Below, in pieces: positions 21,327 to 64,000 of a stretch of 64,000 bases of DNA. A program made the position numbers and the translations under genes. Origin of the DNA: Sipunculus nudus (lineage: Eukaryota > Annelida > Sipuncula > Golfingiida > Sipunculidae); the NCBI GenBank assembly GCA_026874595.1, contig CM049314.1, positions 3,433,318-3,497,317 on the forward strand, written 5' to 3'. Every line of letters starts with the position of its first letter. The first letter of the stretch is position 1. Under the pieces are notes generated by a model that did not search any database, was not told the origin of the DNA, and saw nothing but the letters and a program-made list of their open reading frames with translations.

Positions 21327-24300
21327 AGACGGATGGACGACGGACAATGGACCATGACTATAGCTCAGATGACTTATAGTCAGCTGAGCTAAAAATGCAG
21401 CTGCATGCTCCGCCACCGCAAGACAAAGTGAGCTAACAAAGCGCGGTACCCCACCACAATGACTCCGGGATCCTCCAGGTGGGGCCCAAATTACCTATAG
21501 ATACATCATACATTCAAAGAGCTACAGATACTGGTTGAAAACCTGAAAGAAACAATATGCTTCATATTCCTCTTTCATGTTAATATTAATGATTTCTATG
21601 TACATAGTTTATTTCTACATATGATACTATATGAAGGGGAAAGATTGCACCTGAACTGAACTGTTGAATCAGCCAAGGCCGTTCCCAGCCTGCTCTCTCA
21701 ATAACATTTAATTGTTTTTGAGTTTTATTTTGACCAAGTTTAGGAGAAATTTTGAAAGGATAGAGGTCAGATACAAAAAACTTATAGCTATATATTTGTA
21801 GATGCTACTCTGAGTCCAGTGCCCAGTCAAAAGCCCAAATGTCAAGGACACCCCAGCACAGCTCCAGACCACACAGCCAGAGGAAGCAGGGCAGCAGCAA
21901 GTTAACAACCATGACCACATGAAGACAGTTGGGCACCTTCTAGAACCCTTGTCAAACTCTCTGACTGCTGGGGGAAGGGGTGTTTAAGTGACTGGTTGTT
22001 TTTACATGCACAAAAAAATCTGTAGCAAACTGAATTTATGCTCCATACATGTTGAAGTAGAAATGGAATAAGACCATTAAATCTATCTCAGTCCAACACT
22101 ACCCACTAATTCTGCTATGTGTGCATAATAGAAGAATCAGTTCACATAGCACTGGATTTCTCTGTCAACTGACCTCACCACCACAGCCCTTACCCCCTTT
22201 TTACCTAATTATTATAATGAGACCCCAAAATGCTTCACACAGGTTTCCTTGCGACAGCTTTTAACAAGGCAATAATAATGTCACAAAGGTCTATGACGTA
22301 GACGTCACATTGATTGAAGTCATCGACTGAATCGCTGCACTGATGAATATCTTGCAGTCATTGTGAACTGTCTTGCTATATTTTGGATTATTTGTCCCAT
22401 ATGAACTACGTGCCATGCAGGTAAAACATTATTATTCATGCAGTAGATGGGGGAATGGCCCCTGCAACCTTTTGCCTAGAACTTTTTATACTGTCTAATT
22501 TGTTTTTAAAAATATCCAGGAAAACATGCTAACAAGGGTACAGGTACAGACTACACGTGTTCTGTTTGGGAGATGTCTCCCAAATTATGCAGATTATAAT
22601 ATGGTCAGGTGACTCACTGTTTACATTAATATCAGCGATCTGATTGGCTGCAAGGGACAGTTATTCTCATGATTATTCATTAAATGAATATGCTGTTAAG
22701 GTCATATAAAGTTCATGGTGAGGTCATTTTGAGGTGATATTTGGACTGACCTTGACAGGAATGACCTGATCCAATAACCCAGCGTGATCTTAATAGTCAC
22801 TTGACCTGACTCAATGTAAATATAGAAAGAAATGTGACCCACACTTTAGTTGGTTAGGACAAGCCAGACCTTTCTGATGGTAATGGGTGTTAATGATTTT
22901 ATATCAGATCAAATCTGATGTTAATGGTACTGATAAGTCTGATCAAAACCTGCAGATGTGGATAAGTGTAAGTTGTTCAGCTGTAAAGTTACTACATGAA
23001 AAGTCTGGTCACACATGTGTTAAATGATGTAACTCTGAAATGATCTAAAATACACTTACTGAGTGCAATGAGATATGGTGGGTACATGAGTGACACATCT
23101 GTCCTTAAACTGTCATTGACTATTTTCCTGCAAACAGAACACAAGTTATAGAAAATAATCAGTCATTTAAGTCCTTCTAATAAGTCCTTCTAAAAGGACA
23201 TTACAACATATACCTTGAAGTATACCAAATCAAATTTTCTGAGTTACAAGCATTAATTTGACATCCAAACAGATTTCTTTTGATAAATAAAAGTAAAGTA
23301 ATACAAGAACAGAGAGTAAAATGACATTATACATGGTTGGATTTCTTCATCTGTTTTATTATATATGTCATCTTCAGCAGTATTATTAAATCTACAGAGT
23401 TTATTGACTCATGTGCAGTATTATTAAATCTACAGAGTTTATTGACTCATGTGTATTAATTAACTACAAACCCTACAAATGCCTTGAGCACTAGGGTATG
23501 CACAAAAAGGGTACGAGTTTCCAATAGTTCAGACTGTGTGGGTGAAAAGAAGCTGAAACTTTACTTAATAAATGTGCAGAATCTATTAGTAAACCTACAG
23601 GAGGAATTGAAATTTGAGAAGATAATTCTGCTACAAACATAAAGGACTTTCAAGGGCTTCAAAGAAAAGAGTCCTAATTAAAGTACTTTAAAGGCGTTGA
23701 AATTATCGTTTCCAATAAAAGCATTTTCCAGGTTTTCAAGGACATCTCAACTCCCTGTCTCTGTTCTTACCATGAGATACTGAGGAGTTCTTCATCATCC
23801 TGAGCGATGTCTGCAGAGTACTGTAGGAGGGGTCTGTATGGGTGATACAGGATCAGACAACAGTCCTACAGGGAAAAAATAAACAAGTTATAATGGGTGA
23901 GATGCTGAGGAGTTCTTCATCATCCTGGGCAATGTCTGCAGAGTACTGTGGGAGGGGTCTGCACGGGGGATACAGGATCAGACAACAGTCCCACAGGGAA
24001 AACATATGGTAGATGAGATGGAAAAAACAAGTGACCCATAGGTCATGATGCTCAGCTGAATGGGAAGAGATTCGCAAAAGGAAATCATCTGAATGGTAGT
24101 ATATACCCATTCAACTGAAGCATCAAACAGATTAACCAACAGGCCAAGATTGTGTCTGTATTTATATATCTCAAAAAAGAGAAAAAAATGTGTAAAAAAT
24201 ACAGGTGGCTCCACGAGTCTGCAGAAACTAATAAAAAGACTTAATGGTTAATATGCATGCAAAGAATCATGGTGATCTCTGCATTAGTTGTTCAGATACT

Positions 24301-34700: not shown

Positions 34701-37700
34701 CTCCAACTTAGTAGGTGAGCTATATGTGAAAGATCAAAGAATTGGGATGAAAGGGTTGGCTTAAAATGCATCCACAGGCTTTTCAAAGAGAAGGCCCCTG
34801 TGACCTTGACCTTTGACCTTTTGACCTAAAAAAAATTATGGTTCTTCCCCTGTTGGTAGGTGAGCTGTATGTGAAAGATGGAAGGTTTGGGATGAAAATT
34901 TTGTCTCAAAGAGTGATTTCTGGGGGGTGCAAACACACCCCATAACTTCGAGAATATAGGTCGCAGTGACCTAATTTCAAATTTGCAATGAGATCTTTTT
35001 ATAACCTCTAAGACTGCATAGGGTTCATGGCCCTAGCCCCTACGGTTATGATATGTGCCCTGCTAACGGACGGCCGGCCGGCCGGCCGGACGGACAGACA
35101 GAAGGACGCCGGACAAAGACCCATCGCTATAGCCCAGCATGACTGAAAGTCAGCTGAGCTAATAAAAACTACTGTTTTCAATCAATTCCTTTGAAATTTC
35201 AGATTTTTAAAGATTAAATACTTATGTATATATGCTGTGAAAATTAAATCAACAGTGCTTACAGGGAAAAAACGTGCCATTGCCAAAGTTGGACAAAATT
35301 TAAGGTATTGATTTTTTATTTATGCTAATAACTTGAAAAATTTGCAAAATTCAGATCTAATTTTGGGTAAACTTGATTAAATAAAGTTATATTCCTGAAA
35401 AAAAGTCTCTAGCTTCAGCAATTCTCATGTTAGGTGAGTAAATATATTTCCTGATTTTTTAAAAATTGCATTATATTTTGGCCCATAACTTCAAAATAAT
35501 ATCCAACACTGACCTAATTTTTTGTATGTTCACAGAAAATGTATGAAAGAATGTGAATACTAAATATGATCAAAAACAGATCAGTGGTTTTGATATTAGG
35601 CAGCCTTGAAGTGTAACAATGACTTTTTTATGGAAAATGGAGGTTTTTCCTTAATATCTCGAAGGAACAAAGTCCTAATGACCCAACTTTCGGTATGGTA
35701 GGAGATTTTGGGGACATCTAATGGTATGCAAAATTTTGGAATCATTGGTCCAACGGTTTCAAAACGTGCCCTGTTAACGGCCGGACGGACGATGGACAAA
35801 GGACTGCCACTATAGCTCAGATGACTTATAGTCAGCTGAGCTAAAAATGGTTATTGCACTGGAAAAGAAGAAATGGGTACTGCAGGTATAAATTCATTCA
35901 AAGCATTGCAGTGATCACCCAATGCCATACTTTATTCATTCATCACTCATTACACAGAATTAGGGTTTTTATGTTCTCTGCCCTTATACAACTGAATATG
36001 TATAAATTTACCTATGTGCATTAATAATTAGCAGGGTGCAATTCTACAATATACAAGTCTACAATATAAATGTGTTTTTCCTGACTTAGTATTTTCAGTT
36101 GATTCTGTGATGGTCTTTATATCTGAGGGGTTAAATTTTCACAATCTTCATGTTTTTAAGTAAGTTTAAATTAGTGATCTCCCCATATGAAAAACCTACA
36201 CATAATATAGCATTATTATATTAATTAATTATATAAAATATGTGCACAAAATCTTTATAATTGGACAACTGAACATTGCAAGAGTTGAAAAAATTGTTTT
36301 TAATGACATGTAATTTTAAAGATCTTACATCATTTATAATATAGCCATCTCTGAACATACAGGATCTTATTATTTATGTTAAATATCAATCATTAACCTT
36401 TTGAGTTGCTTTCCATAAAGGGACTTTTATTCTCAAAGGTTTTATTTTTGTGATTATTCCCTTCTGCAAATTCGCTAATTTGAAACCCTTGCAAACAAAA
36501 AGGCAACTACAGTAGCTGGAGTTCCAGCTGAGCTTTAACACTCACAGGTCTCATGTATCAGAAACCGATCAGTACATGTTCTTATAATTGAATAAATATT
36601 AGAATTGTCTGACTGTTTGATATTTTAATTTTTTCCTACCCTCAGCTCTTCTATAAAATATTTGTATTTTTTTTTAATCTGGCCAAATTACATGTTATAG
36701 TTACAATATTTTAGATCCACCCTTTCATCGAATTCTGTTCCACTGTCACATATTCTACTGGGGAAGATATGTGCAAATTTATTTCAGGGTCCAATCTTAT
36801 AACTATCTTTTCTGTTTATGTATGTTTTTTTTTATTTCATTAAGCAATAAAGCAAGTATGTGTACCTATCAAGGTTCTCTCCGGTAATACAGTGAAATGT
36901 AAACACATTTTATGAAGCATTTACTTACAGATGAATGTGTGTAGCTTTGGGGCTCTTACTGTAATGTTATTTATAATTTCAATGATCAAACATATTTGTC
37001 CAGGTAATATTTATCAATAATGTATCAGTTCTTGAGATCTAGCAAGTGTTAAAGGGACTCTTAAGGATACAAGTATATTATTTTTATTTAAGTAACCTTA
37101 TATAAGAAACTAAGACTTACCATTAGTTCCAATAAATTGAATTCACATTCCAGTATATGGTTTATTCTGTAGGGAAACTCTTGTGACCAAGCATACTGGA
37201 ATCTGTTTTTAACTGGAAACATGAAAGTAACAATCATTCAGCAGGTAATGGAAAAACATTCATGACATTAACTAACATGTTTTGAATTTCCATTACTCCC
37301 CGCCCCCCTTTCCCCTAACAAAGTGTATATATTTCTTTTTCATTTCCCCCAATAATTTTTCAATGCTTTCATTCTATAAACTGTGAGACTAATTCCAGAA
37401 CTATATTTTCACTTATGCTAAGTATCACATGTCTATTGCAGATTTGCAAATGAGAAACAGTGTTAAACCTGTATATATATTTGCCAAGTGAACTGTTAGT
37501 CTGTTCAGTTATAATTGAATTTTATCACTTTGCTAAATCTGTATGAATGTATATTAAAATACATGCATTACATTTGATGAAGACAACTAATTATTGGGAG
37601 GTTCAAGTTCTTTGCAAGCAGGCATTAAATGCCAATTCTTACAGATTACAATTATTAAACAAAGCTTTTACTTGTTTCCATGTTAAAAATGTTTAATGTG

Positions 37701-40700
37701 ACTCTGAGAAACCTCAGAAATTTATCCTTTTCTATGCTGCTCATACTTACCTACTGTTTGGCATGTTGAAAGCAATCTGCTGTTAGAAATGACCCCAAAT
37801 TCCTATATCAAATCACAAATTATATAACATTATGCTAAAGTGAATGTCAAAGAATGGAGTTCCTCACTAATTTTAAAATGAAATTGCATGGTGACTTTAA
37901 TAAACTGCTCAGCTGCAAAATCTTAAAATAAAAAAAAATGATATATCAACCAGCAGTTACCAAAAGAAAATTAAACATACACATTGAAAATTGCATGATT
38001 CTTCATTCTAACAAACTTGACAAAATGATTCATGATGAGATCGAAAGCTTTACAGGAAGAACTTTTTAATGATCTTTACATGCAAAGTACTTCATAGCAT
38101 TACGCATATATGTGACCTATACGTTTTGTAGTTCATCAGAAGATCTTGACCTTATGTTTTACACATTCTAAAGGAGGTTGTCTTTTTATTATTTACACGT
38201 ACCTCTACTTTGGAAGCTAGTAATACACATGTAGGGGCCATCAACAAGGGATCAACACATTTCAGTGAATTTCTGAAATACAAATCGACAAAAATCATAC
38301 AATTACCACATGCTGCAGGAGTGTAAAAATTTAAATTAAATTTCTTTCAATAAGGTTCAACAGGAACCCCCTTTCATTGCAATAATATAAACCAATTTTT
38401 TAGCCAAAAAATAATCTTGTGGTTCTTTTGTCTACAGAGTGCATATGCAGCATCAATTAACACTTAATCTTTAACACCACCACTTCATTCTCAGTCTGTG
38501 TGTTTATATGTACAGGGGATGATACTCTGCTGCATGTCAGTCTTATTACACGGTGCCTGATGAACCATTTATTTATGATGAACCCAATCAATAAGTACTA
38601 TAGGAAATATTTACTGCAGGTTTCTATATAAGATTAGTAATACTGGTAACATACACTTTGGTGTTTGTGAATAAAGTGTTCACATATAAAAAGGAGATTT
38701 AACAATTAACTACACTTTAACACATAACAATTTTTTTTTTTTGCTGTTACTTTACTTCAGGAACAGCAAGTACCAAGTCTGGTAACACAAACAAAAAGAC
38801 CACTTTCTAAGTCAGCAATTACTAGTACTCTTATTTTCAACAGGTATTCAACTATAGCATTAATTTTAATTATATTCAACACATACTTTATTAACATTAA
38901 TCATGTATGAATACAAATTCAAAGATGATTGTTTTTTACCTTTAATGGCATGTTCTAATAAAAAATTACAAACCTGGCATAAAACCTTTTGAAGTAAACT
39001 GTGGCTGTTGCAATGACCTGTTGTCTAAACTTGAGCTGTTCACCTAATGTCTGTATAACTGGAATATTAATAATTTATTTACACATATGGATGTATACAC
39101 AACAACATAGTGCTCAACAGATGATCCTACATAATTCAGTTACATTATAGAAACAGCTTGTGAAGATATACAGAATATGGAATACAATGCAGAGTAAAAC
39201 CTAGCTATAATTACCACAGAAGCATAACATAAGCAGCACAAAAGTGCATAATATGCCTGTTGTAATATGCTTTAAAGATGAGTAAAAGGTCAATTTTTGT
39301 TAAGTATTGAATTCAAGTGAGATATTTTTTTTGGTGGTAAACATTTATATAAAGTTTCATAAAAATCTACTTAATTCCTGCCAAGTTATTGCAGCCACAC
39401 CAGAAACAAGTCTGGTGACCCCTGACCATATCAAATATATGCTGATATGCCCACAATCAAACTCAAGCAAGATATTTTATTGAACAAGGCCTACATGCCT
39501 AGTGCGAACCTGTGCATTGGGGATACACCAGGTATAATGCTTCAATGCTGGACCATTACTTCTCATGTATATGAACAATGCAAGTACTAAACATTTTGAA
39601 TAAGAAACAATTACACAAACATCACTGCTAAAATTCTGGCATGGGTGCATACAACACATCTAGGGACCCATGGGTCTCAACGCTCAGTTTCTACAGGTTT
39701 CCTAACTTTGGGCAAGTAAGCCATGTGTGAGCGTTGGAAAGTTCAGGATGAAAAGTTGGTCATTATTAAAGCCTGTCTGTCTATCCAAAGCAGAATTATC
39801 ATCCATAAACTAATTTGTGAATGGATGGGCTATGTGACCTTGACCTTTGAACTATGACCCAAAAATCAAACAGAATCTCCCCTAGTGGCAGGTTAGCAAT
39901 ATCTTGAAGATGGAAGGTTTGCGATGAAAAGTTTGGCTTCAAATGCATACAAATTCCTTTTAAAGAAATGGGTCCTGTGACCTTGACCTTTGACTGTTGG
40001 ATCCCAAAATCAACATGGTTCTTACTTTAGTGGTGGGCCAATTATAAGTTAAGTTTGAAACCAGTATATCAAACTTAACTGGAATTATCATCTGGAAACT
40101 AATTTGTGTGGATGGACGGATTGACAGACAGACAGACATACAAAAAGACAGACTGACAGACAGGGTGATTAGCATAGGGCATCCACTTGTGATCAATAAA
40201 CACTCCAGGTTTTGAGACACCAGATGTAATGACAGCTGAGAAACTGACATGATTGTTGTCATTTTATAGTAAATAAATAGAAAAATATTTGTTAAAATAG
40301 GAAAACCACCACAATTCAGGAACTGACAAAACTAGTCATGGTCAATATTCAAGGCAAGATTCATGACAAACCATACATTAATTATTAAGATATTGGAGGT
40401 TTTGTATCAAATTTTTTATTATTCTGGGGGGTACTTTCAATCCCCATAGCTCGAAGGAAAAAGGTCGCAGTGACCTAATTTCAGGTTTCCAAGGAAATTT
40501 TTAATTGACCTCCCTGGATATTCTCTTAGAAGTTTCTTGCACCAGCTGTTATGATTGGTGCCCTGCTTACGGACGGCCGGACGTCCAGACGGACGAGGGA
40601 CAAAGCACCATTCCTATACCTCAGTTGACGTACAGTCAGCTGAGCTAAAAATGATTGTAGCTGGCACCACCAGTCTTGTATACAAAAAGGTTTCAGAGAT

Positions 40701-43700
40701 ATATACATATGCCCAAGTTCAGACTGATATATCAAACCCCTCCTGAGAAATAAGCAGGGACACACACTGTGCAAAAAATTATTGTAGGTGGCACCACCAG
40801 TCTTGTATACGACAAGTATACGATAATTAAAATACGATAGGTATAAATATGCCCAATTTCAGGATGATATATCAAATTCCTCTGTAGAAATAAGCAGGCA
40901 CAAAAATCACACACTGTGCAAATGTCATTGTAGGTGGTGACACCTGTCTTGTGAACGAGAAACCCATCAGACACATAGACAGGTCAAAATATTAGGCCAA
41001 TACATCAAACTTACCTTAAGTCTGATACATGGGGCTGACCACGCTTAGGTGAGAAAGGCAGTTGCCTCGAGTGAACTGTGACAAATTTGCTAGCTCAGGC
41101 TACTGCACTGAGTGAACTCATGACCTGCACCTGGCTAGACTGGGTGAACTTTTTACCTGTACCTGGCTGCACTGAGTGAACTCTTGACCTGTTGCCTAAT
41201 CTGATACAGTTGGCAGTCTGCCAAAGCTATAAACAGATTGGCTCCACATGCAGCCCTGAGGGGAATGACACCAATGAGGTGATCACATGGTGCCAATGAG
41301 GTGTTCACATGTCACCCATGAGGGGATCACATGCCTTGTGCTTGGCTGCACTGACTAAACTCTTGATCTATTGCCAAATCTGAAACAGCTGGCAGTTTCT
41401 TAACCTATGTAAATATACAGACACAATCTTGGCCTGTTAGCAAATCTGTTTATACATACTGAAAGACTTTGGCTAAAATGCTTTTTTTTCAAGCTGAAAT
41501 ATTCATAAACTTTTTATCAAAATATCTAGAAAAATAAAAGATTCAGTTCTTTCATTGTTAAAGGTCCAATAATTCTGCCAAAAATCATTCAAGTAAACTT
41601 GAACAAAGGCCACCTAAGAATAATTTTTGTGCCATGTAACAGAAGTTATAATTGAAACAATAATTTTGTAGAAGAACAGTTTTGCTTTCCTCAGTTTGGG
41701 TTCGTCATAATAATGGCCATAAGACCAACTTAAGTTTTTCTGATATTATTGAAAGAACCATGTCCTACGATAATTTTTTTGAAAAATTGAATGATTCAAC
41801 TTAACAGTTTCATCATAAACATTTTAAGCTGAAAGAGGCTAAAATTATGAGGTTTTTGCCCATAAAAAAACAGGTCAATGTAGGTGGCACATCAAAATCT
41901 GCAACTTCAAATATGAGTCATGTGACCAACATTTGCACAATACTTGGTAATGCTAGCTTCTGTCATTTCTGAAATTCTGAGATAACTATGTCAGTATGCT
42001 TACTTTGCCAAATGACCGTTCAAACTCATTTTACTCCACTAAAATTCATCAAATGCAAACATTTGAACAAACTTTGAGAGTGCTTGCCTCTGGAATCATT
42101 TATGTAAAATATTGAACAATTTGGCTGGACCGTTTACAAGAAGACTTTTAAAGGTTTTTCAGCTTTTCCCCTATAAAATCTAAGTAAATGCAGATAGCAA
42201 AAAACATAAGCTGAATCCCACAACATTTGATATGTGACAGATAGTTGCATAAAATCTGGGGATGGTAGCTCCTGCAATTCCTGAGAAATTATGGGTTGAT
42301 ATACAGATGACCAATGATGCCACAGGTGGCGCCACCAATACCTTAATTTCATATATGACTCATGTGACCAACACTGGCATAAAGTTTGGTGATGATAGCT
42401 CTGGCCGTTTCTGAGATAGTCATTTTAGTATGCTTTATTGGACAGATTACTAGGTTCAAATTTCTGTAAATTCTGCCAAAATTCACCGAACTTGAATTAT
42501 TTGAACAAACTTGAGAGAGATGGTATAAAAGATTATTTCTGTGAAATATTGAACAAATTGGCTTGACCATTTCAGAGGAGAAGATTTTTAAAGGTTTTTT
42601 AGCTTTTTCTCTATAAAATCTAAGAAAATGCAGATTTTTTTCAGATGGCTAATTTTTTGCATTAAATTTCATGATGCTTGCTCCAGTCGTTTTCGAAATA
42701 GTATGGGTTAACATATACCTGTGATTGTAAACATTGCCTGGCATAAGAGGAATAAAATCATAAATCTACATTTTTTAAAAGTTTTTAAAAAACAATCTTG
42801 TCAATATTAACCAAAGATAACCTGAAATCTAAATGTCTGGAGGCATGATGTAACGGATGCTGATAAACTGGTGCCAGGCTAGATGTATCTGCTTCACACA
42901 GCTAACATTTATGGTAAAATGACTCAATTCAATCTTTTTAATTCAGCCAAAATTCATTCTTTGGAACCATAAAAGACAATTATTATAAGAATTACTCAGG
43001 GGATTAGTCCTGTAAAATATTAAACAAATTGGCCTCAGTGACATCAGTCAAAAAACGTTTTGCAGGGATATAACTCATATGGGAAAATACAGCAAAATGG
43101 CTAAGTTAAGCTTCCCATAACTCAGCCAAAATTTACTGAACCAAAACCATTTGAACAATATTATATTATCAACATCGAAGGATAATTTATGTGTGAGATT
43201 TAAGAATTTGCCCGAGTGGTTTTTGAGAAAAGTTTTTTGTAGCCACTGAGCTAAAATGGGCTGTTATGGCATATGACTAAATTCTGCTTCCCATAACTCA
43301 GCCAAAAGTCACTGAACTGAGACCATTTGAACAAACTTCTGAAAGCAATACCCTAGGATCATTTCTCTATGATATTAAACAATTTGGCCATATGGTTTCA
43401 GAGAAGAAAGTTTTTGTAGCAGTCATTATGATACGGGCACTGATGACCCCCGTACAAAAAAGGCTGATGCAGGTGGTGCCACCAATACCTCAATTTCAGA
43501 TATGACTCATGTGACCAACATTGGCATAAAATTTGGTGATGATAGCTCCAGCCATTTCTGAGATTGTAATTGTATCCGCCAAAACAGAGTTTTGCGGATA
43601 CTATGTTTTAAGCTGCACGCCGCCGCCGCCTAGGTTTCCGGAGAACTCCTCCGTAACCGCTGGGCGGAATTTTACGAAACCCGGGATTATGTTCGGTCAC

Positions 43701-46700
43701 ATGTGAACTGCTGCGCCCCGATTTTGTTTTGACCTCTGACCTTTCCTCTGCGCTCTGCGTCCGTTTGTGCGTCTGTTTCCACACATAAACCCACATATCT
43801 CGGGAACCGTTTGACGGATCAGGAAAATTTTTTTGCACAAATGTAGCCCTTGGAGAGCTTTATAACATACACAAAAATGGTGGCGCCACCTGCAACCATG
43901 TTTGCACAGTGTCCATCTGTTCGTCTGCCTTGGGTTAAAATCACTCATATCTCTGCAGTGACTTGACTAATTCACCTGAAATTTGGCATGCGTATACATC
44001 CTGGATAGCTTTTCTGATTTTGTGACAGGTGGCGCCACCTACATTCACGTTTACGCTGCAGACATCCAAGCTCATATCTCAGGAACCGTTTGACCGATCA
44101 GGAAAATTTTTTTGCACAAATGTAGCCCTTGGAGAGCTTTATAACATACACAAAAAATGGTGGCGCCACCTGCAACCATGTTTGCACAGTGTCCATCTGT
44201 TTGTCTGCCTTGGGTTAAAATCACTCATATCTCTGCAGTGACTTGACTAATTCACCTGAAATTTGGCATGCGTATACATCCTGGATAGCTTTTCTGATTT
44301 TGTGACAGGTGGCGCCACCTACATTCACGTTTACGCTGCAGACATCCAAGCTCATATCTCGGGAACCGTTTGACCGATCAGGAAAATTTTTTTGCACAAA
44401 TGTAGCCCTTGGAGAGCTTTATAACATACACAAAAAATGGTGGCGCCACCTGCAACCATGTTTGCACAGTGTCAATCTGTTTGTCTGCCTTGGGTTAAAA
44501 TCACTCATATCTCTGCAGTGACTTGACTAATTCACCTGAAATTCGGCATGCGTATACATCCTGGATAGCTTTTCTGATTTTATGACAGGTGGCGCCACCT
44601 ACATTCACGTTTACGCTGCAGACATCCAAGCTCATATCTTGGGAACAGTTTGACCGATCAGGAAAATTCTTTTGCACAAATGTAGCCCTTGGAGAGCTTT
44701 ATAACATACGCAAAACTGGTGGCGCCACCTACAGCCATTTTTGCACAGCTCCTGTCTGTTTGTCTGCCATGGGATAAAATCACTCATATCTCAGCAGTGG
44801 TTTGACATATCTGGCTAAAATTTTGCAGGTTTATACATCCCCGACAGATCTCTTGATTTTATGACAGGGGGAGCCACCTGCATTCTAGTTTATGCAGCAG
44901 ACATCCGAGCTCATATCTTGGGAACTGTTTGACCGATTGGGCCAAAGTTTTGCATGTGTATAGTTCTCACATAGCTCTTTATCATACGCAAAACTGGTGC
45001 CGTCACCTGCAACCATTTTTGCTCAGCGTCCATCTGATTGTCTGCCTTGGGCTAAAATCACTCATATACATGTAGTGGTTTGACTTATCTGCCTTAAATT
45101 TTGCATATGTATACAACTGGGACGGCTTTCTGGATTTTGTGGTAGGGGGGGCAACCTTCATACACAATTTGGCTGCAGACATCCATGCTAATATGCAACA
45201 CTTCACTCTATTTCCCCTTGCCACTTAATCCATGCCTCACTTCACCCGTTCCACTCTGATTTAGGCAGATACACATAGTCGCTTGTCGACTACCCGTATT
45301 CTAGTTTTAGTATGCTTTTTTGGACAGATGACTAAGTTCAACTTCCTGTAACTTGGCCAAAAATCACCGAACTTAAACCATTCGAACAGACTTGAGAGAG
45401 ATTGTTCCAGGAATCATTTCTGTGAAACATTGGACAATTTGGCTGCACAGTTTGGGATAAGAAGATTTTTAAAGCTTTTTTAGCTTTTTCACTATAAAAT
45501 CTAAGAAAATGCAATTAGTCAAAACATAAGCAAAATCCGATAGAGTTTTTTAGAAGACTAATTTTTTGCATAAAATTTCGTGATGCTTACTCTTGCCATT
45601 TGCAAGATAGTATAGGTTAATGTACAGACAACTTAGACGGACGACGCCACATCATCGCATAAGCTCACAGGTTCGCTAAAAATATAAGCATTAAATTTCA
45701 TGAAAAAAAAAATCAATTTCAGGATTATCAGCTACAACAGCACCACCAAAGGCCAATGGGCAGATGTGCATAAGGCCAGATCAACCCTGGCTGTACCATT
45801 AACTGATAAACAAACTTTTTTACCTCCAAAAACACTGGGGAATTGGTTGGTGATAAGTAGTTCCCGAGACATTGCCGAATGTACTGACAATAGTGGAATG
45901 ATAAAAATTTTTATATCATTACCAAGATAAAAAAGACTGATATCATCCCAAAACTGAGATATTCTGTACTTACAATTGGCAAAGAAGATCATTATTTTCT
46001 GATATGTTTCTTCTGTCAGGAGTTTTAGGTCACTCTGTCTCTCCCTTAACAGGTCCTGTCTGTCCAGGAGCCACTGATGACTGTAAAATAAAACACATGA
46101 GAACCATTACTATCTTCTGTCATGAGTTTTAGGTCACTTTGTCTCTCCCTCAACAGGTCCTGTCTGTATAGGAGCCACTGATGACTGTAAAACAAAACAC
46201 ATGAGAACCATTTCTATCTTCTGTCAGGAGTTTTAGGTCACTCTGTCTCTCCCTCAACAGGTCCTGTCTGTCCAGGAGCCACTGATGACTGTAAAACAAA
46301 ACACATGATAACCATTACCATCTTCTGTCAGGAGTTTTAGGTCACTCTGTCTCTCCCTTAACAGGTCCTGTCTGTCCAGGAGCCACTGATGACTGTAAAA
46401 TAAAACACATGAGAACCATTACTATCTTCTGTCAGGAGTTTTAGGTCACTCTGTCTCTCCCTCAACAGGTCCTGTCTGTCCAGGAGCCACTGATGACTGT
46501 ACAACAAAACACATGATAACCATTACTATCTTCTGTCATGAGTTTTAGGTCACTTTGTCTCTCCCTCAACAGGTCCTGTCTGTCTAGGAGCCACTGATGA
46601 CTGTAAAACAAAACACATGAGAACCATTTCTATCTTCTGTCAGGAGTTTTAGGTCACTCTGTCTCTCCCTCAACAGGTCCTGTCTGTCCAGGAGCCACTG

Positions 46701-49700
46701 ATGACTGTAAAACAAAACACATGATAACCATTACCATCTTCTGTCAGGAGTTTTAGGTCACTCTGTCTTTCCCTCAACAGGTCCTGTCTGTCCAGGAGCC
46801 ACTGATGACTGTAAAACCAAAACATGATAACCATTACTATCTTCTGTCAAGAGTTTTAGGTCACTCTGTCTACCCCTCAACAGGTCCTGTCTGTCCAGGA
46901 GCCACTGATGTCTGTAAAACAAAACACATGATAACCATTACCATCTTCTGTCAGGAGTTTTAGGTCACTCTGTCTCTCCCTTAACAGGTCCTGTCTGTCC
47001 AGGAGCCACTGATGACTGTAAAATAAAACACATGAGAACCATTACTATCTTCTGTCAGGAGTTTTAGGTCACTCTGTCTCTCCCTCAACAGGTCCTGTCT
47101 GTCCAGGAGCCACTGATGACTGTACAACAAAACACATGATAACCATTACTATCTTCTGTCATGAGTTTTAGGTCACTTTGTCTCTCCCTCAACAGGTCCT
47201 GTCTGTCTAGGAGCCACTGATGACTGTAAAACAAAACACATGAGAACCATTTCTATCTTCTGTCAGGAGTTTTAGGTCACTCTGTCTCTCCCTCAACAGG
47301 TCCTGTCTGTCCAGGAGCCACTGATGACTGTAAAACAAAACACATGATAACCATTACCATCTTCTGTCAGGAGTTTTAGGTCACTCTGTCTTTCCCTCAA
47401 CAGGTCCTGTCTGTCCAGGAGCCACTGATGACTGTAAAACCAAAACATGATAACCATTACTATCTTCTGTCAAGAGTTTTAGGTCACTCTGTCTCCCCCT
47501 CAACAGGTCCTGTCTGTCCAGGAGCCACTGATGTCTGTAAAACAAAACACATGATAACCATTACCATCTTCTGTCAGGAAATTAAGGTCACTCTGTCTCT
47601 CCCTCAACAAGTCCTGTCTGTCCAGGAGCCACTGATGTCTGTAAAACAAAACACATGATAACCATTACCATCTTCTGTCAGGAAATTAAGGTCACTCTGT
47701 CTCTCCCTCAACAGGTCCTGTCTGTCAAGGAGCCACTGATGACTGTAACACAAACACATGATATTTATAACCATTACCATGATGTAATAATTTATAATGC
47801 GTCATGATTTTCTCAACCTGATGGCCTGTGGCAAGGTAGAAAAATAATGATTTTTATTACTTTCATCATTAAAAGTTCAAATTTATTAAAAAGTAGTAAT
47901 GAAAATCTATAACCTAGTCAACCACTCTGCAATAAGAATATAATAACTCATGCACTTAAAGAGGTTGTATATTAATCCCCCCCCCCTAACTATCCAGAAT
48001 CACAGATCACTCGCTGATGTATACAAGGGAAGGTATAACATCCTTAGTCATAAATTGTCTTTAAACCTGTCACCTGATGATCAGGAACATTCACCCTAAT
48101 AAACAGCACCCCACATGCTGCAAGGCAGATAGCCCTGGCCCCACTGATCTTTTTTATCTACACTGTGAGAGAGCACTAGAAGAACATTTTAATGAACAAG
48201 AGAAATGCAAGTTAACAATAAAATTATTAAATGACCAGTGAAAAGTCATATTCATAATAAAAAAAAAGATGGTTAATTTTGTTGTTGATACTGGTCAGGG
48301 AACCGGACATAATTTATGCAGACTGAACATCAGGCACTTCCCATAGCAATACACAGTCAGACCAGTGTGAGTTATTGCACAGCACTAACCATCTGACCAA
48401 GAACTTTACTTTTGGTCTGGGGTAAGCCGGCCAAAGGTATTTCATTGATAATTTTCAGCAACTGCATCAGAGTTAGGAATTTTCTTGAATTCAGAGAATC
48501 TGCATCATCCAAGAAAATTACCAAATAATGTTCAGAATTGCTGAATGTTATCTAGGATTTATTGACTACAGTAGATAAACTGGAACATTTAAATTATTTT
48601 ATTGCTTTTATTATAGTCAATAAATACCAAATATTAACATGAATAAATTTACTTTAATCATTTTGCAGTCTGAGGTGAGTTTTATATTTTATGGAAGTGT
48701 ATTGAAAAAAAAACAGAATTACTCCCAAACATATAATCATGAAAATAGTGAAAAATATATTAAAAAATTTCTGTTTCTTGTATATTTGTCTTATCTTATT
48801 ATCATTACTCATAAGGAACTCAAATAAGTACCGTACTTCAAAATACTTAATTGTGCAATCCTTGAAAATCTGTTTATACTGATTCACATCACCTTATTTT
48901 TTGTCAAGTATACTCTGATATTCTCTGTTTGTATTATCATGAATATTTTGTCATCTGATGGATTACTTACAATAAATAAAAGAAACAAAATTAAGCCAGA
49001 ATGTTTATTTTTTTAGCTGTTATCTTTCTGTAAAGAATGCTTCTCCAAAATGGGCTAGTTTTCATACAATAGCTAAATCTGAGTGGAAACTGGAAATGGT
49101 ACAGACCTCTAGTTCTGGGACAGACATATTACAGATTTACAGTGTGTCTTGAGCTTCAGATACTTCATATCTTTATTCAATTAGAGAATGCATTTCATTT
49201 ATCTAGCAGATGGAACGCATACAAACAGTCTACATAGCATTTGTTCTGAGTACTTCTGGCCCTGTGTGTTGATAGCCTGTCCTAGTGAGTGGAAAACTCA
49301 AAACTGGTTACTGGCACATGAAATTGTTCTAGCCTGCAAGGTGCATGTACTACATTTCAGCTGGGTGGGCAGGGAAGCAAGGGTTAGCAGTGATGATATA
49401 ACACTTGCATGCACATAACCGCAATATATACAGCAATATCCAGGATCCTGGATACCGCCGCATAAAAAGCTTCAGAGTAAACATGAGAACTTAAAACCCT
49501 TGTCGAAAAAAATTGTGTATAATCAAATATTGCGTTTATGACAAGAAAACTTAAGTTATCTTAAGAAGATTAGTACTTTATTTGAATGACTAAGAAATTC
49601 AGCTAAATATTTTGTTTTTGTATGTAAACAAGACTTGCTTTCAAAACTTTGCGACCCAGGCGTTGGAAATTGTCTCAAAATCTGAAAAAGAACTGCGTGA

Positions 49701-51248
49701 CCTTTCCTTGTTGAGCCAACACCACCCTTTACAACTGGTTACACAGGCAGCTGCTGGCCAGCTGTGGCTTGGGGAAAACCCAGAGCAGACATTGTTCCCT
49801 TGTATCACTGTTTATAAGGACAATATATTCTTCGAATCAACATTTAAAGTGGACAAACACTGTCTAGGTGGTATGTAATATGCGCATTTGATAGGAATAT
49901 CTTTATTTCATAATGAATACAACATTTTCAAACAAAATATAAGAATTTAATTGTCATGTGGAATGTCTCCAGTTTTCTCAAATCATCTTCTAGGGCTCTC
50001 GCACAGCGTAGCGAAGTAAGAGAGCACGGGAGCTAGGGCTAGCATGCACTAAGCTGGCTGAAACAATCACGCCGGCTCACCCAGGCACCTTGTCTCGGCC
50101 CAAGACGTGTGATTCCGATCCGCACGCTCCTCTCTGTCAACGTCTTGGGAACGACTCTTAGGAAAACGCCTCGTAAGGTTCCAAATAGGAGACCCCTTTG
50201 GAATCGTATAATTGATATTTCAAGCGGTGTCAACATAAAATAATTACCTTTTTGTTGTCTTTGGATGTTTTGTTAAACATCTGTAAAGTATTGGCACCAA
50301 AATAATGCTCAATAGCCCTACTTATCCATAATTTTGCCAAGAGCTGATGTGTTTACATAGAGAACATGCCGCCATGATTACATTAAATGACCGACAATCC
50401 TTTGCAACGGGATTTAGACTGGGAACCCACTCTGATCTTATCGCTGTTTGATCTGGAAAAAGCGGGCGATAAATCTCGGTGGCAAGTACCAGTCGATCAA
50501 TGTCCGCTCATTACAAATTCCTGTATATTGTTATGTTTAAATCATGGCGGGCTTATAAGGATTGTTAGGGATAATATTTCATTAATATATTAAGGTAAGA
50601 ACGTGGTAAAGTTGCCAGAAAGACCCATTTACTACCAAAGACACTAACAGATGCATTTTGGTGTGTATATTTAGTAATTTTAAGAGTTTTTTTGGTGCCT
50701 TCTACCAGTGTCTACCATTTCACCATTACAAGGCCTAACTGTACAGGCCATTTCCACAACTGTGATCGTATCACAGTTGTGGATCCCCAACAACCAGGCA
50801 CCCAACACACAGGGTCAGAAGTAATCAGAACAAGTGCTGCGAGACCCTTTGTAAATACTGCATCCGCTCGATAAATGAAGACAGTAGCCTGTAGCTCTAT
50901 ATGATATACATTTCACAGCTCAGAGCCACAACTGGGTGACGGACCCTGGGTCTAATATAAAATAAGGACATACCACTTAGTGTTTCTTTACTTTATATAT
51001 CGAACGGATTATCGTTTAATTACTAATCAAAAAGAAATTATCAGTGAGTACAACATCTATGAAGGTGTCGTCAAGCCTAAAATACCGGTGAATTGTCCAG
51101 TAATCAGTCCTGACGAATGACATATTTGACTGTCAACTGTCATTTGCCCACTGTAACGATCTCTCACTTCTCACGGCCAAAGTATTATTTAATATCGACA
51201 AATATGTGAATCTTACTAATGTGAACTCTGCCAGAAGTTCCCCGCCAT
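10879..51248 (-). CDS. CCNC: Cyclin C gene, 11 coding exons (full coding span)
   Basis: Cyclin C binds CDK8/CDK19 and forms the Mediator kinase module in the nucleus, regulating RNA polymerase II transcription. Joining 51217-51248, 45974-46080, 38974-39058, 38203-38272, 37751-37802, 37121-37212, 23771-23865, 23060-23127, 13095-13174, 12389-12507 and 10879-10975 on the minus strand gives 897 nt, 298 residues plus stop. Every border is GT-AG and every phase matches. The protein begins MAGNFWQSSHY, as in animal cyclin C, and keeps the cyclin-box landmarks MAPTC (86-90), ASKVEEFG (94-101), INHILECEF (132-140), DCCLILYHPYRPLLQY (147-162), KQWFAELSVD (215-224) and LSKMPKPK (255-262). Vertebrate cyclin C is about 283 residues; the extra length is a Q/S/G-rich tail. 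Introns range from 400 bp to about 13 kb, and the largest are full of repeats. The coding frame shows no break, so the gene looks functional. Homology was recognised from knowledge of the family, without alignment software. Confidence 0.95.
11247..11922 (+). repeat. 18-bp minisatellite (about 37 copies) in CCNC intron 10
   Basis: The unit is CAAACTGAGGGAGAGCAM (18 bp). Subtypes with CACC, CAAC and CTAC spacers occur in runs. Because 18 is divisible by three, long frames stay open on the minus strand (LSLSLV/LSLSLL repeats), but these are repeat artefacts. Confidence 0.95.
12139..12169 (+). repeat. (CA)n microsatellite
   Basis: About 15 CA dinucleotides within intron 10. Confidence 0.95.
12389..12507 (-). 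CDS. CCNC: Cyclin C exon 10
   Basis: Residues 228-267, containing ILEITRYILGFYELWKGYKE and LSKMPKPKLAPS. This is the last helix of the second cyclin fold plus the conserved MPKPK at the start of the tail. The acceptor is TTGTTGTAG and the donor GTGAGTCC. Confidence 0.95.
13095..13174 (-). CDS. CCNC: Cyclin C exon 9
   Basis: Residues 201-227, including CLHMACVIKDRDKKQWFAEL and SVDLDQ. The QWFAELSVD motif is highly conserved in cyclin C. The acceptor is TTTTTCAG and the donor GTAAGATT. Family C element C3 starts about 57 bp upstream of the acceptor (13231). Confidence 0.95.
13231..17225 (+). mobile_element. Family C element, copy C3, interrupted by B1
   Basis: It starts ACAAGGCCTATTGTGAACCTG at 13231. 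A ~300-bp core unit (TAGACACATCGTCTAG... to ...AACAGGTTCTT) occurs at 13815-14116 and again at 16764-17060, with element B1 between them. C-type core with GACTCAGGGGACAAACATTG and TTTGGTGATGACAGC follows at 17140-17220. The normal GGTTCGCTA 3' end is missing, so the copy is truncated at about 17225. Confidence 0.5.
14117..16763 (+). mobile_element. Family B element, copy B1
   Basis: It starts ACAAGGGACCCATGGGTCAC then GGCGCTCAGCTG, and ends CAGCTGAGCTA. The 3' hairpin has arms GCTCAG-A-TGACT and AGTCA-G-CTGAGC around TAT. A GGACGGACAGCAAGACAGACAG tract precedes the hairpin. The core has two ~700-bp repeats (15400-16100 and 16100-16700) with the phrases AACGTGCCATGG and CAGTGGTTTTGATATTAGGCAG. 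It is inserted between two tandem core units of C3. Confidence 0.7.
17632..18177 (-). CDS. Intronless ORF with SAM-like N-terminal domain, likely mobile-element derived
   Basis: An uninterrupted 181-codon frame begins at a true ATG inside cyclin C intron 8, on the same strand. Residues about 8-65 (FLWAQKHKIDALTVQLLENE..., SLEALELLEAVDLVKTKIS, GQRKLVLKAM) resemble a SAM/death-fold module: a DL pair, then I..GQR..L..A. The middle is Q/N/S-rich and low complexity. The end (SSWAPKDGV...FASALGSVAS) is unrecognised. Local GC content is about 50%, unlike the flanking intron. The length and layout would fit the first ORF of a DIRS/Ngaro-type element or a captured retrocopy; no recombinase or reverse transcriptase is visible nearby. 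Function unknown. Confidence 0.45.
   Translation of the reverse strand: MGDTGDSKVFLWAQKHKIDALTVQLLENEGFTSLEALELLEAVDLVKTKISRGQRKLVLKAMSTMKPNSDIGLTNQPNNDHANSQQNPSEQQPQQEGHVAGGRHSTRDDIYTRQVLEMLAMQQTECKGSCPDISSWAPKDGVGQNIIRGNLQGPSAGNPRDVDFASALGSVASSTNWIMTL
18235..21391 (+). mobile_element. Family B element, copy B2 (3.2 kb)
   Basis: The 5' terminus is ACAAGGGACCCATGGGTCAC and the 3' end the B hairpin plus GCTA. Its first ~1.7 kb matches the first part of B4 (30866-32728). Two core repeats (about 20000-20560 and 20690-21260) are followed by a CGGACGGACAGACAGACAGA microsatellite (21280-21340). A G14 tract sits at 19841-19854. The minus-strand frames here are not conserved genes. Confidence 0.7.
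21392..23059. other. Unique part of CCNC intron 8
   Basis: No repeat termini, ORF of interest or RNA gene seen. Scattered TGACCT half-sites occur at 22690-22800. Confidence 0.4.
23060..23127 (-). CDS. CCNC: Cyclin C exon 8
   Basis: Residues 178-201, reading WKIVNDSLRTDVSLMYPPYL then IAL. It corresponds to WRIVNDTYRTD...YPP in vertebrates and begins the second cyclin fold. The acceptor is TGTTTGCAG and the donor GTAAGTG. Confidence 0.95.
23771..23865 (-). CDS. CCNC: Cyclin C exon 7
   Basis: Residues 147-178, starting DCCLILYHPYRPLLQY and ending DDEELLSIS plus two bases of Trp178. The acceptor is TTCCCTGTAG and the donor GTAAGAAC. A diverged duplicate of the entire exon lies just upstream in transcription, at 23896-23990. 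Confidence 0.95.
23896..23990 (-). pseudogene. Decayed tandem duplicate of cyclin C exon 7
   Basis: These 95 nt match exon 7 without gaps, with about nine substitutions. The frame stays open (DCCLILYPPCRPLPQY...), but His154, Tyr156 and Leu160 positions have become Pro, Cys and Pro. The acceptor AG is now GG (CCCTGTGG) and the donor GT is CA, so normal splicing should skip it. The duplication unit is 125 bp, including a short piece of intron. An element of family E begins 37 bp beyond it. A remaining role as an alternative exon would need unconventional splice sites and seems unlikely. Confidence 0.85.
24027..28747 (+). mobile_element. Family E element, interrupted by composite B3
   Basis: It starts ACAAGTGACCCATAGGTCAT next to the decayed exon 7 and ends CAGCTGAGCTA at 28747 after a CAGA/CGGA microsatellite (28664-28695). 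The core is ~300-bp repeats (about 27005-28640; first copy 24190-24514) containing CTGCAGRAACTGATG, TGAAGATTCTAGGTCCAG and ACAGAGACCTAATTTC. One repeat has its CTGGGGGGTACTT motif expanded to G25 (27490-27514). Confidence 0.6.
24515..27005 (+). mobile_element. Composite family B element B3, nested in E
   Basis: It starts GGGACCCACGGCGCTCAGCTG with B1-type sequence, then a second B 5' terminus (ACAAAGGACCCATGGGTCAC, 25114) leads into B2-type sequence with a core repeat and a GGACGGCCGG tract. The end reads GACTTATAGTCATCTA, a B tail that has lost GCTGAG. The E repeat resumes directly at 27005, which shows the nesting. Only one 3' end is present for two 5' ends, so one copy is truncated. Confidence 0.55.
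28748..29242 (+). mobile_element. Family C 3' fragment (C4)
   Basis: Begins within a core repeat (GGTGGCGCCACCAATACCTC at ~28762) and ends with the intact family C terminus CATAAGCTCACAGGTTCGCTA. The 5' part is missing. Confidence 0.6.
29243..29514 (+). mobile_element. Family B 3' fragment
   Basis: CAGTGGTTTTGATATTAGGC to the hairpin tail and CAGCTGAGCTA, directly after C4. Only the last core portion, a short GGACGGACAGA tract and the terminus are present. Confidence 0.6.
29515..30865. other. Unique part of CCNC intron 6
   Basis: Contains the 5S-like fragment and an isolated GGCGCTCAGCTG (29769-29780), which matches the B 5' box without a partner 3' end. Otherwise nothing recognisable. Confidence 0.4.
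30393..30452 (+). ncRNA. 5S rRNA-like 3' half (pseudogene or 5S-derived SINE)
   Basis: CGGTTAGCTTTTGGATGGGT followed by GACCGCGTG matches the 3' half of eukaryotic 5S rRNA (CGGTTAGTACTTGGATGGGT GACCGCCTG). A preceding TTAAGC also fits the 5S AGTTAAGC. The 5' half, including box A, is absent, so it is not a functional gene. A 5S-derived SINE is an alternative. Confidence 0.6.
32729..35161 (+). mobile_element. Family A element, copy A2, nested in B4
   Basis: Almost identical to A1 from ACAAGTGACC to CAGCTGAGCTA, differing by scattered substitutions and small indels and by the GGCCGGCCGGCCGG tract (35070-35090). It lies within B4 with no visible target-site duplication: the flanks CTTGA and ATAAAA join to the uninterrupted host sequence. 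It is therefore younger than B4. Confidence 0.8.
34389..34819 (+). promoter_or_regulatory. Array of DR1 sites in A2
   Basis: Perfect TGACCTTTGACCT at 34526-34538, 34661-34673 and 34807-34819, and a one-mismatch copy at 34389-34401, matching the sites in A1. All lie in cyclin C intron 6. Confidence 0.55.
35844..37120. other. Unique part of CCNC intron 6 before exon 6
   Basis: AT-rich sequence with no element termini or coding signal. Confidence 0.4.
37121..37212 (-). CDS. CCNC: Cyclin C exon 6
   Basis: Residues 116-146, including KNRFQYAWSQEFPYRINHI and LECEFNLLELM. EFPYR.NHILECEF is a strong cyclin C signature. The acceptor is TTTCCAG and the donor GTAAGTC. The following intron (23866-37120) is 13.3 kb of mostly nested mobile elements. 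Confidence 0.95.
37751..37802 (-). CDS. CCNC: Cyclin C exon 5
   Basis: A 52-nt exon, residues 99-116, reading EFGVISNSRLLSTCQTV. It completes the KVEEFG motif begun in exon 4. The acceptor is TTGATATAG and the donor GTAAGTATG. The second half of the segment (LSTCQ) differs from the vertebrate IAAAT, the most divergent stretch of the first cyclin box here. Confidence 0.93.
38203..38272 (-). CDS. CCNC: Cyclin C exon 4
   Basis: Residues 75-98, including LKCVDPLLMAPTCVLLASK and VE. The MAPT and ASKVE motifs belong to the core of the first cyclin box. The acceptor is GTATTTCAG and the donor GTACGTG. Confidence 0.95.
38974..39058 (-). CDS. CCNC: Cyclin C exon 3
   Basis: Residues 47-75, first cyclin box. 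It includes IQTLGEQLKFRQQVIATA followed by TVYFKRFYAR. The acceptor is ATATTCCAG. The donor is a less usual GTTTGT, but the phase joins correctly to exon 4 (AG plus A gives Arg75). Confidence 0.95.
39659..40647 (+). mobile_element. Short element F (A/B-type termini) nested in C2
   Basis: Starts TCTAGGGACCCATGGGTCTC and ends CAGTCAGCTGAGCTA. It mixes two A-like core repeats with near-DR1 sites (39841, 39983) and a CAGACAGACAGA tract, then an E-like core unit (TTATTATTCTGGGGGGTACT) and a second CGGACGGCCGGACG tract. It appears to be a chimera of A and E cores within one pair of termini. Confidence 0.6.
43572..45304 (+). mobile_element. Helitron-like element D (280-bp core), nested in C2
   Basis: The 5' end is a hairpin GTATCCGC...GCGGATAC (43572-43601) followed by ACTATG and GCC repeats. 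The 3' end has hairpin TAGTCG-CTTGT-CGACTA (45276-45292), 8 nt, then CTAG (45301-45304) and T. The same terminal layout occurs, inverted, at 315-1942. The flanks AATT and TTTTAGTATGC match an uninterrupted C core near 42420, so insertion was into a T run. Non-coding. Confidence 0.7.
43770..45235 (+). repeat. ~280-bp tandem core repeats of element D
   Basis: About five units; three central ones are nearly identical with period 280 bp (equivalent positions 44029, 44309, 44589). Each holds two GGTGGCGCCACC palindromes (for example 44031 and 44160). Frames MAPPTFTFTLQTSK... repeat with the units and are not genes. Confidence 0.9.
45974..46080 (-). CDS. CCNC: Cyclin C exon 2
   Basis: Residues 11-47. 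It contains HQWLLDRQDLLRERQSDLK, collinear without gaps with the vertebrate segment after SSHY, and ends in IFFAN. The acceptor is TTTTACAG and the donor GTAAGTAC. The 5' two thirds of this exon, together with the acceptor and about 31 bp of intron, is the unit of the tandem array at 46081-47765. Only this copy continues into the rest of the exon and a good donor. Confidence 0.95.
46081..47765 (-). repeat. Tandem array of exon-2 5' part plus splice acceptor (about 16 copies, ~104 bp)
   Basis: Units repeat every ~104 bp. Each holds ~31 bp of intron 1, the acceptor TTTTACAG and ~73 bp of cyclin C exon 2 (HQWLLDRQDLLRERQSDLK and a few more codons). The last base of the true exon copy is 46080. 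Homologous exon starts recur near 46183, 46288, 46392, 46497, 46601, 46705, 46809, 46911, 47015, 47119, 47223, 47327, 47431, 47533, 47640 and 47742. No copy has a stop inside the exon-derived part, and most changes are silent or conservative. Units lack the rest of exon 2 and any GTRAGT donor. Variant units at 46392-46911 recur at 47015-47533, a six-unit higher-order period of about 622 bp. Confidence 0.9.
47766..49593. other. Unique part of CCNC intron 1
   Basis: AT-rich, with a C8 tract near 47980. No gene recognised; the frames at 48639-48887 and 49188-49418 lack motifs and coding composition. Confidence 0.4.
49594..49870 (+). other. Coding-like exon candidate in cyclin C intron 1, antisense to CCNC
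   Basis: An open frame of about 90 codons runs into a good donor (GGTG|GTATGT at ~49870). It includes ALEIVSKSEKELRDLSLLSQ and QLVTQAAAGQLWLG, with balanced codon use in an AT-rich region. There is no ATG start, and a plausible acceptor (TTTTTGTATGTAAACAAG) lies near 49629, so an internal exon fits better than a whole gene. I do not recognise the protein. It may belong to a nested gene, or be a captured exon. Confidence 0.3.
51217..51248 (-). CDS. CCNC: Cyclin C exon 1 (start codon)
   Basis: The exon encodes MAGNFWQSSH plus two bases of Tyr11. The ATG is followed by GCG, and the residues match the nearly invariant cyclin C N-terminus, which fixes the start. The donor is GTAAGA, just below 51217. 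The upstream sequence (51249-51400) has no obvious TATA box; the 5' UTR length and transcription start cannot be set from sequence alone. Confidence 0.95.
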
Positions 51249-63700: not shown

Positions 63701-64000
63701 GCTTTCTATCATAGACCTTAAACGGGGTCCGAGTTTTCTTCTCATGAATCATCTCTGCACCGTCATGTCTCTTCAGACCTGTTTTCTATCATAGATCTGT
63801 AACGGGGTCCGGGTTTTCTTCTCATGAATCAACTCTTCACCGTTATGTCTCTTCAGACCTGCTTTCTATCATAGATCTTTAACGGGGTCCGGGTTTTCTT
63901 CTCATGAATCAACTCTTCACCGTCATGTCTCTTCAGACCTGCTTTCTATCATAGATCTTTAACGGGGTCCGGGTTATCTTCTCAGGAATCAACTCTTCAC
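57713..64000 (+). repeat. 80-bp satellite array with 1738-bp higher-order repeat (continues past window)
   Basis: The monomer is about 80 bp: CTTCAGACCTGCTTTCTATC ATAGATCTTTAACGGGGTCC GAGTTTTCTTCTCATGAATC AACTCTTCACCGTCATGTCT. Some monomers lack ~15 bp (ATGAATCAATGTCTCTTC). The rare variant GAGTTATGCG occurs at 58671, 60409 and 62147, exactly 1738 bp apart. Copies between these points are nearly identical, and the third copy departs near 62930. At 57962 a related variant begins a shorter block. Frames here are not coding because 80 is not a multiple of three. Confidence 0.95.

Follow-up and report, generated by a model that had tools for sequence, protein, structure and literature searches.

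The minus strand of a 64,000-nucleotide (nt) stretch of the Sipunculus nudus genome (assembly GCA_026874595.1, contig CM049314.1, positions 3,433,318 to 3,497,317; hereafter the window) carries the gene for cyclin C, and intron 1 of this gene ends in a tandem array in which the splice acceptor and the start of exon 2 are repeated in 16 decoy copies ahead of the true exon 2. Based on the findings of this study, it is very probable that the array is a minisatellite of the little-noticed kind named 'mirage' in amphioxus, which would have grown by unequal exchange, would be near-neutral, and whose decoys would mostly be ignored through exon definition.

The array was delimited by Tandem Repeats Finder at 46009-47763 (period 104, 16.9 copies, 94% matches, score 3111), which is far beyond chance. 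The start of exon 2 is present in 17 copies, comprising 16 decoys and the true exon 2 at 46080, and the decoy units, 14 of which are 104 base pairs (bp) long and two 103 bp, represent 10 distinct sequences. A T-rich tract leads up to an acceptor AG in each unit, after which come 72 nt from the start of exon 2; counting the true one, the AG is kept in 17 of 17 copies. An earlier note on this DNA, made from its letters, had described some 16 decoy units of about 104 bp, each with an acceptor and the start of exon 2, lying before the true site; the count agrees with this description, and the exon piece is indeed a partial exon 2 start, although it measures 72 nt rather than the proposed 73 or so. 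Two decoys, those starting at 47015 and 46392, match the true site without a difference over a stretch that runs from 42 nt before the acceptor to exon position 72, so that no signal inside those 114 nt separates true from false. When a 27-nt core of exon 2 was sought in the 1.43-gigabase (Gb) assembly with up to three mismatches, 17 matches were listed, all at the cyclin C locus, indicating that the array is not a dispersed repeat. The same core read backwards gave no matches among those listed in the 1.43-Gb assembly, and no second haplotype copy of the array was found in the search with the exon 2 core; by the search program's own warning, the counts of these genome pattern searches are possible lower bounds.

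The identity of the gene was established by joining its exons. Exons 1-6 joined give a protein of 146 amino acids (aa), all of which (residues 1-146) aligns with PDB chains named cyclin-C (expectation value, E, 3.2e-71); the protein also matches the Pfam family Cyclin_N, and the translation of exons 1, 2 and 3 joined begins MAGNFWQSSHYHQWLLDRQDLLRERQ. Exon joining and the PDB match thereby confirmed the gene, the strand and the exon 1 and exon 2 junctions that the earlier note had given. Searched against the assembly at E up to 10, the exon 1-6 protein produced 23 matches, 21 of them in the cyclin C gene (decoys included) and the remaining two with E above 1; no second copy of the gene was among these matches. 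A genome search with Cyclin_N listed 20 matches, none in the cyclin C gene, presumably because the exons of this gene are short, and its result was not used.

Table 1. Coordinates of the cyclin C features in the window and of exon-edge copies elsewhere in the assembly.
Feature	Position	Strand	Details	Basis
Exon 1, coding part	51217..51248	-	ATG ... TA, then donor GTAAGA	sequence; protein match
Intron 1	46081..51216	-	5136 nt, array at its 3' end	sequence
Upstream flank of first unit	47743..47779	-	homologous to unit tail (37 nt vs 32)	
16 decoy units	46081..47742	-		repeat finding, copy search
Exon-piece starts	47742, 47638, 47534, 47431, 47327, 47223, 47119, 47015, 46911, 46808, 46704, 46600, 46496, 46392, 46288, 46184			
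Two six-unit blocks	46289..47534	-	47534-46912 and 46911-46289, 623 bp each; higher-order repeat	
True exon 2	45974..46080	-	107 nt, terminal array copy; donor GTAAGT from 45973 down	
Exon 3	38974..39058	-	85 nt	
Upstream partial copy of exon 7	23898..23990	-	without last 2 nt of exon and without donor	
Exon 7	23771..23865	-	seventh coding exon located; YHPYRP exon; donor GTAAGA	
L013 and L134	G000:C4, about 93857200-93861750	-	donor side, 68 decoy donors, 65-bp period, behind kinase exon	
L064			acceptor side, three decoy acceptors	
L073			donor side; a single decoy donor, then another fragment	
L108			acceptor side, one decayed copy, AG lost	

Concerning the origin of the array, the unit junctions are informative. 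Exon position 72 (..GAAGA) is joined to TGGTAATGG, and the flank of the first unit, TGGTAATGGTTATAAATATCATGTG..TTACAG, is the unit tail again, with 6 additional nt and a slightly altered pyrimidine run. Junction and flank together show a single tandem duplication, in which position 72 of exon 2 became attached to intron sequence 32-37 nt before the acceptor; originally, intron 1 probably ended in this flank. Unequal exchange probably then multiplied the unit to 16 decoys besides the true exon, and one six-unit block was duplicated recently. The two six-unit blocks (Table 1) differ at one of 623 positions. According to the succession of unit types, three more copies akin to block units come after them, with the true exon 2 as the last; the true exon would appear to lie inside the exchange zone. 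This single difference between the blocks, together with the 114-nt identity of two decoys with the true site, is a sign of concerted evolution in the cluster.

In long introns it is well established that exons are recognised as units (exon definition), and a lone acceptor or a lone donor makes a poor exon. Each duplicate covers a single exon edge, so that the remainder of exon 2 and its strong donor GTAAGT are left to the last copy alone, and the argument from exon definition advanced in the earlier note is accepted here as right. What is known of splicing, and the need for a working cyclin C, would suggest that the last copy is paired with this donor while the upstream acceptors are mostly ignored, which would most likely leave the array near-neutral and variable in length. 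At most, low-level mis-splicing might be expected, yielding mostly RNA with an early stop. Whole-exon duplications would often break the frame whereas one-edge copies would be tolerated, and this difference may constitute the filter that lets exon-edge arrays survive.

The earlier note had also held that the units lack a donor. This is correct in so far as exon 2's own donor is absent from all decoy units and three of the 16 have no GT, while the other 13 carry a weak GTAATG 2 nt past the exon piece (T[GA]GTAATG). With a slash for the exon end, six units read ATG/GTAATG and seven ATA/GTAATG; the remaining three read GAAATG. The +5 position is G in all ten true donors located in the cyclin C gene and T in the decoy GTAATG. 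Donors were scored with one matrix built from these ten true donors, the true ones being scored leave-one-out, and with a second, vertebrate-like matrix. On the gene's own matrix the decoy donors reach 3.0 (six units) or 1.4 (seven units) compared to 2.6 to 10.5 for true donors. Of the 345 GT sites in intron 1, decoys counted, 18 score at least as high as ATG/GTAATG with the vertebrate-like matrix and 36 with the gene-derived one. Judged by these scores, the putative decoy donors are weak rather than absent.

Use of a decoy acceptor with read-through to the true donor is predicted to bring a stop in all 16 cases (codon 51 or 57; codon 11 in three), and units 47638, 47534 and 46911 start with A, which creates TAA at the junction with exon 1. 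The stop that the earlier note expected on reading into the next unit is thus present (codon 51 or 57) for the 13 units that are open at this junction, and its statement that the units carry an open frame holds for the same number after joining to exon 1 and fails for the three with the junction TAA. Insertion of a 74-nt mini-exon before exon 2 would likewise give a stop in every unit (codon 47 or 11), three of which have no GT donor; inclusion therefore brings a stop in 16 of 16, as would be expected of a poison or decoy exon. By comparison, a transcript that runs from exon 1 through a unit directly to exon 3, a case absent from the earlier note, would remain in frame, the two lengths (107 and 74 nt) differing by 33, and the frame is open in 13 of 16 units, 10 of these with a GT; in the resulting protein 13 residues, seven of which are identical in a PDB cyclin-C chain, would be replaced by two. 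The combination of an own acceptor and a usable donor in each copy, which would characterise mutually exclusive exons, was not found in the 16 units (three without GT, 13 with a GTAATG that has no G at +5). The openness of the frame was itself rejected as evidence since changes of this sort would leave the frame without a stop with a probability of 0.13 to 0.35, and one exon-piece change, shared by three units, does turn the junction codon into a stop.

Some observations weigh against a purely neutral, ignored array. Of 15 changes in the exon pieces, nine are synonymous compared to 4.4 expected (P about 0.004, 0.0036), as determined by a randomisation that keeps the kinds of change and that was chosen after the data were seen. 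With the position-40 change in one of the units assessed against the consensus and not against its own background, the count becomes 8 of 15 (P 0.021), and four reduced sets gave P values of 0.0039, 0.0033, 0.0072 and 0.031 (the smallest set being 6 of 9). Such a skew is not predicted by a purely neutral history after duplication. In addition, 13 of the 16 units do carry a GT, and ATG/GTAATG is not beyond the reach of true donors: its 3.0 exceeds the weakest true donor (2.6) on the gene's own matrix, and its 5.2 on the vertebrate-like matrix falls within the true-donor range of 4.0 to 12.3, above one true donor (4.0) and just under two others (5.4 and 5.6). Finally, the authors of the amphioxus study noted that mirage repeats could serve as cryptic splice sites (PMC3087553). 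Regarding the skew, it is possible that the units preserve alleles which were once copied from the true exon. Variable columns make up 12 of 72 in the exon piece and 5 of 32 in the tail (14 full-length tails of 16), and these similar shares speak against strong selection on the decoys. The skew was consequently not taken as proof of coding use of the decoys, since the exon piece as a whole shows no conservation and the copying of alleles from the constrained true exon would produce it equally.

Exon 2 is not the only exon of the gene with a copied edge. The partial copy upstream of exon 7 (Table 1), in which the acceptor AG has become GG, is 91.7% identical to that exon over 109 nt including the acceptor region, and the 93 nt of exon compared contain seven differences, four synonymous and three residue-changing. 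A survey of other genes comprised 129 loci, with 80 loci that take in 81 of the 138 kinase-domain matches (136 of 959 candidates scored in the kinase listing) and a further 49 of 63 chaperonin matches; the loci were chosen for short, probably spliced exons and are not a random sample. A looser repeat scan flagged six of the 80 kinase loci and a stricter one five of these 80 and one of the 49 chaperonin loci; the looser scan had the starts of cyclin C exons 4, 5, 7 and 9 set 1-2 nt late, with the result unchanged. Clear exon-edge copies were retained at four of the 129 sampled loci (L013, L064, L073 and L108). Three candidates were dropped from this set: L039, a 30-nt match at 83% seen in the looser scan only; L084, a 71% match whose repeat starts after the donor; and L069, which has two whole related exons and no edge copy. 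The two kinase exons of L069 (G000:C9:46371331-46373594) lie about 0.9 kilobases (kb) apart, are 74% identical and encode the same part of the domain, and by sequence this pair is a candidate for mutually exclusive exons. Same-strand repeats were present in 31 of 258 flanking control stretches (22 of 160 and 9 of 98), which, compared with the exon counts, indicates that exons are struck less often than their surroundings. No closely spaced arrays of matches were seen in the kinase listing itself, for the 136 of 959 candidates scored. A separate observation from the chaperonin searches is that nine full-length chaperonin frames of 547 aa and equal score, on the eight small contigs C61, C62, C66, C72, C73, C75, C89 and C99, are probably bacterial sequence in the assembly, derived from a symbiont or a contaminant.

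The array at L013 is the mirror image of the cyclin C acceptor array. Behind an exon ending ..YSTK, a 65-bp unit repeats the last 20 or so nt of the exon together with a donor GTAGAT; 69 anchors were found, the true donor included, with GT in all and the same nine letters, AAGGTAGAT, in 59 of 69. All 30 of its matches among those listed fall at its own locus. Selection on the decoy GT (kept in 68 of 68) was considered and rejected, given that 23 of 65 columns are invariant across the 68-unit array and the GT is thus unremarkable; its invariance is in any case uninformative because the units were found with an anchor containing that GT. Both exon edges are therefore affected in the genome, the acceptor side at cyclin C exons 2 and 7, L064 and L108 and the donor side at L013 and L073, while at cyclin C itself copies occur on the acceptor side only. 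The suggestion in the earlier note that amplifying an acceptor plus coding part is an unusual minisatellite origin may hold in general, yet this origin recurs here, at exon 7 and at four of the 129 loci, and has a name in amphioxus.

The amphioxus report describes mirages as minisatellite-like tandem duplications of exon-intron boundaries in Adh3 and in the globin genes BflGb6 and BflGb9; they occur at either exon edge, with length differences between haplotypes and concerted evolution, and the data are said to suggest that regular splicing is undisturbed (PMC3087553). The arrays of S. nudus share with them the tandem minisatellite units laid across an exon-intron boundary, the authentic boundary being one copy of the series, and the cyclin C units resemble those of BflGb6 in consisting of the 3' end of the intron and the 5' part of exon 2 (PMC3087553). 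They differ in the genes concerned and in number, BflGb6 having 6 or 3 units of 150-160 bp depending on the haplotype, in contrast to 16 decoys at cyclin C and 68 at the kinase exon. The authentic boundary stays in use in amphioxus (PMC3087553), and undisturbed splicing of cyclin C would be expected from its intact reading frame. Internal tandem repeats lying across exon-intron boundaries have also been surveyed in segmentally duplicated human genes, where minisatellite expansion over such boundaries likewise alters gene structure; many of the human repeats are exonic or yield new introns, and they belong to recent paralogues with transcript support (PMC2812944). Cyclin C, by contrast, had no second copy among the matches of the genome search. 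Tandem and mutually exclusive exons (PMC9013439) also involve tandem copying of exon sequence inside a gene, unlike which the cyclin C copies are partial, represent one exon edge and have no comparable donor. A decoy in intron 4 of human OGT is reported to keep its intron in by means of weak sites, its 5' sites being required; it resembles the cyclin C units as an unannotated, intronic, exon-like stretch with acceptors and weak donors, and differs in being a single stretch of about 150 bp that has been tested and is regulated, as opposed to 16 putative decoys derived from the next exon (PMC12017769). Exon-edge minisatellites likely reach beyond amphioxus, and the cyclin C array is probably a new, near-neutral instance of a kind already known, one that is recurrent in this genome.

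Among the other explanations considered, it is conceivable, if improbable, that the units are functional splicing decoys that hold back intron 1 or divert RNA to decay, with copy number tuning cyclin C output. The acceptor paired with a weak GTAATG 74 nt further on in 13 units, the stop brought by a unit placed before exon 2 and the parallel of OGT intron 4 would all fit such a role; set against them are the three units without GT, the loss of AG in the exon 7 copy and in L108, a 68-unit donor array that displays no sign of splice-site selection, and the amphioxus mirages, which are reported not to disturb splicing (PMC3087553). Poison-exon or length-dependent control, as raised in the earlier note, is possible but gained no direct support here. 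We consider equally improbable the broader proposal that this lineage repeatedly makes hypervariable exon-edge decoy arrays whose length tunes host splicing in each individual, the cyclin C units holding back or diverting intron 1.

An assembly artefact, in which the repeat number was inflated or the array misassembled, is improbable. The one-site difference between the two 623-bp blocks would be compatible with it, as would an amphioxus mirage that seemed aberrantly assembled in a draft genome (PMC3087553); however, no N occurs anywhere in the window, the 16 decoys comprise 10 distinct sequences, a similar array is present at an unrelated exon, and 1.7 kb would be short for long reads. It is very unlikely that the units serve as alternative mini-exons, a single 74-nt unit replacing the 107-nt exon 2 and giving a cyclin C 11 residues shorter. 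The frame that stays open through exon 3 in 13 units, 10 of them with GT, and the synonymous skew would accord with such use; against this, a frame match has a one-in-three chance of arising, the donors are weak and missing in three units, three other units give a junction stop, and of the 13 residues to be replaced, which we take to fall at the first cyclin-box helix, the PDB cyclin-C chain shares 7. That a dispersed satellite or mobile repeat landed by chance at the exon edge can practically be discounted, as nothing was found in its favour and all 17 core matches listed lie at cyclin C and all 30 listed for the 65-bp array lie at its own locus.

Further tandem arrays were observed in the window. 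An 80-bp array with higher-order structure occupies 57713-64000, extending over 6 kb to the window end, and arrays with units of 324, 18, 336 and 280 bp are located at 435-1779, 11255-11922, 27533-28594 and 43794-45194, respectively. At 9417-9681 and 34633-34897, and likewise at 5846-5935 and 41103-41192, there are short tandem pairs that have an almost identical consensus; these twice-placed pairs are probably parts of dispersed repeats.

Returning to the mirage-type minisatellite that is preferred here, the cyclin C locus represents a natural test of exon definition, as transcription passes 16 acceptors, of which two equal the true one over 114 nt, before it reaches the latter in a gene that must still produce a conserved subunit of the Mediator kinase despite these decoys, while the kinase array with its 68 donors offers the mirror test. 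The findings suggest that exon-edge minisatellites are also a repeated feature of a second animal genome. There they may mislead gene-prediction programs and the alignment of short reads, and they could contribute to intron gain or exon evolution.

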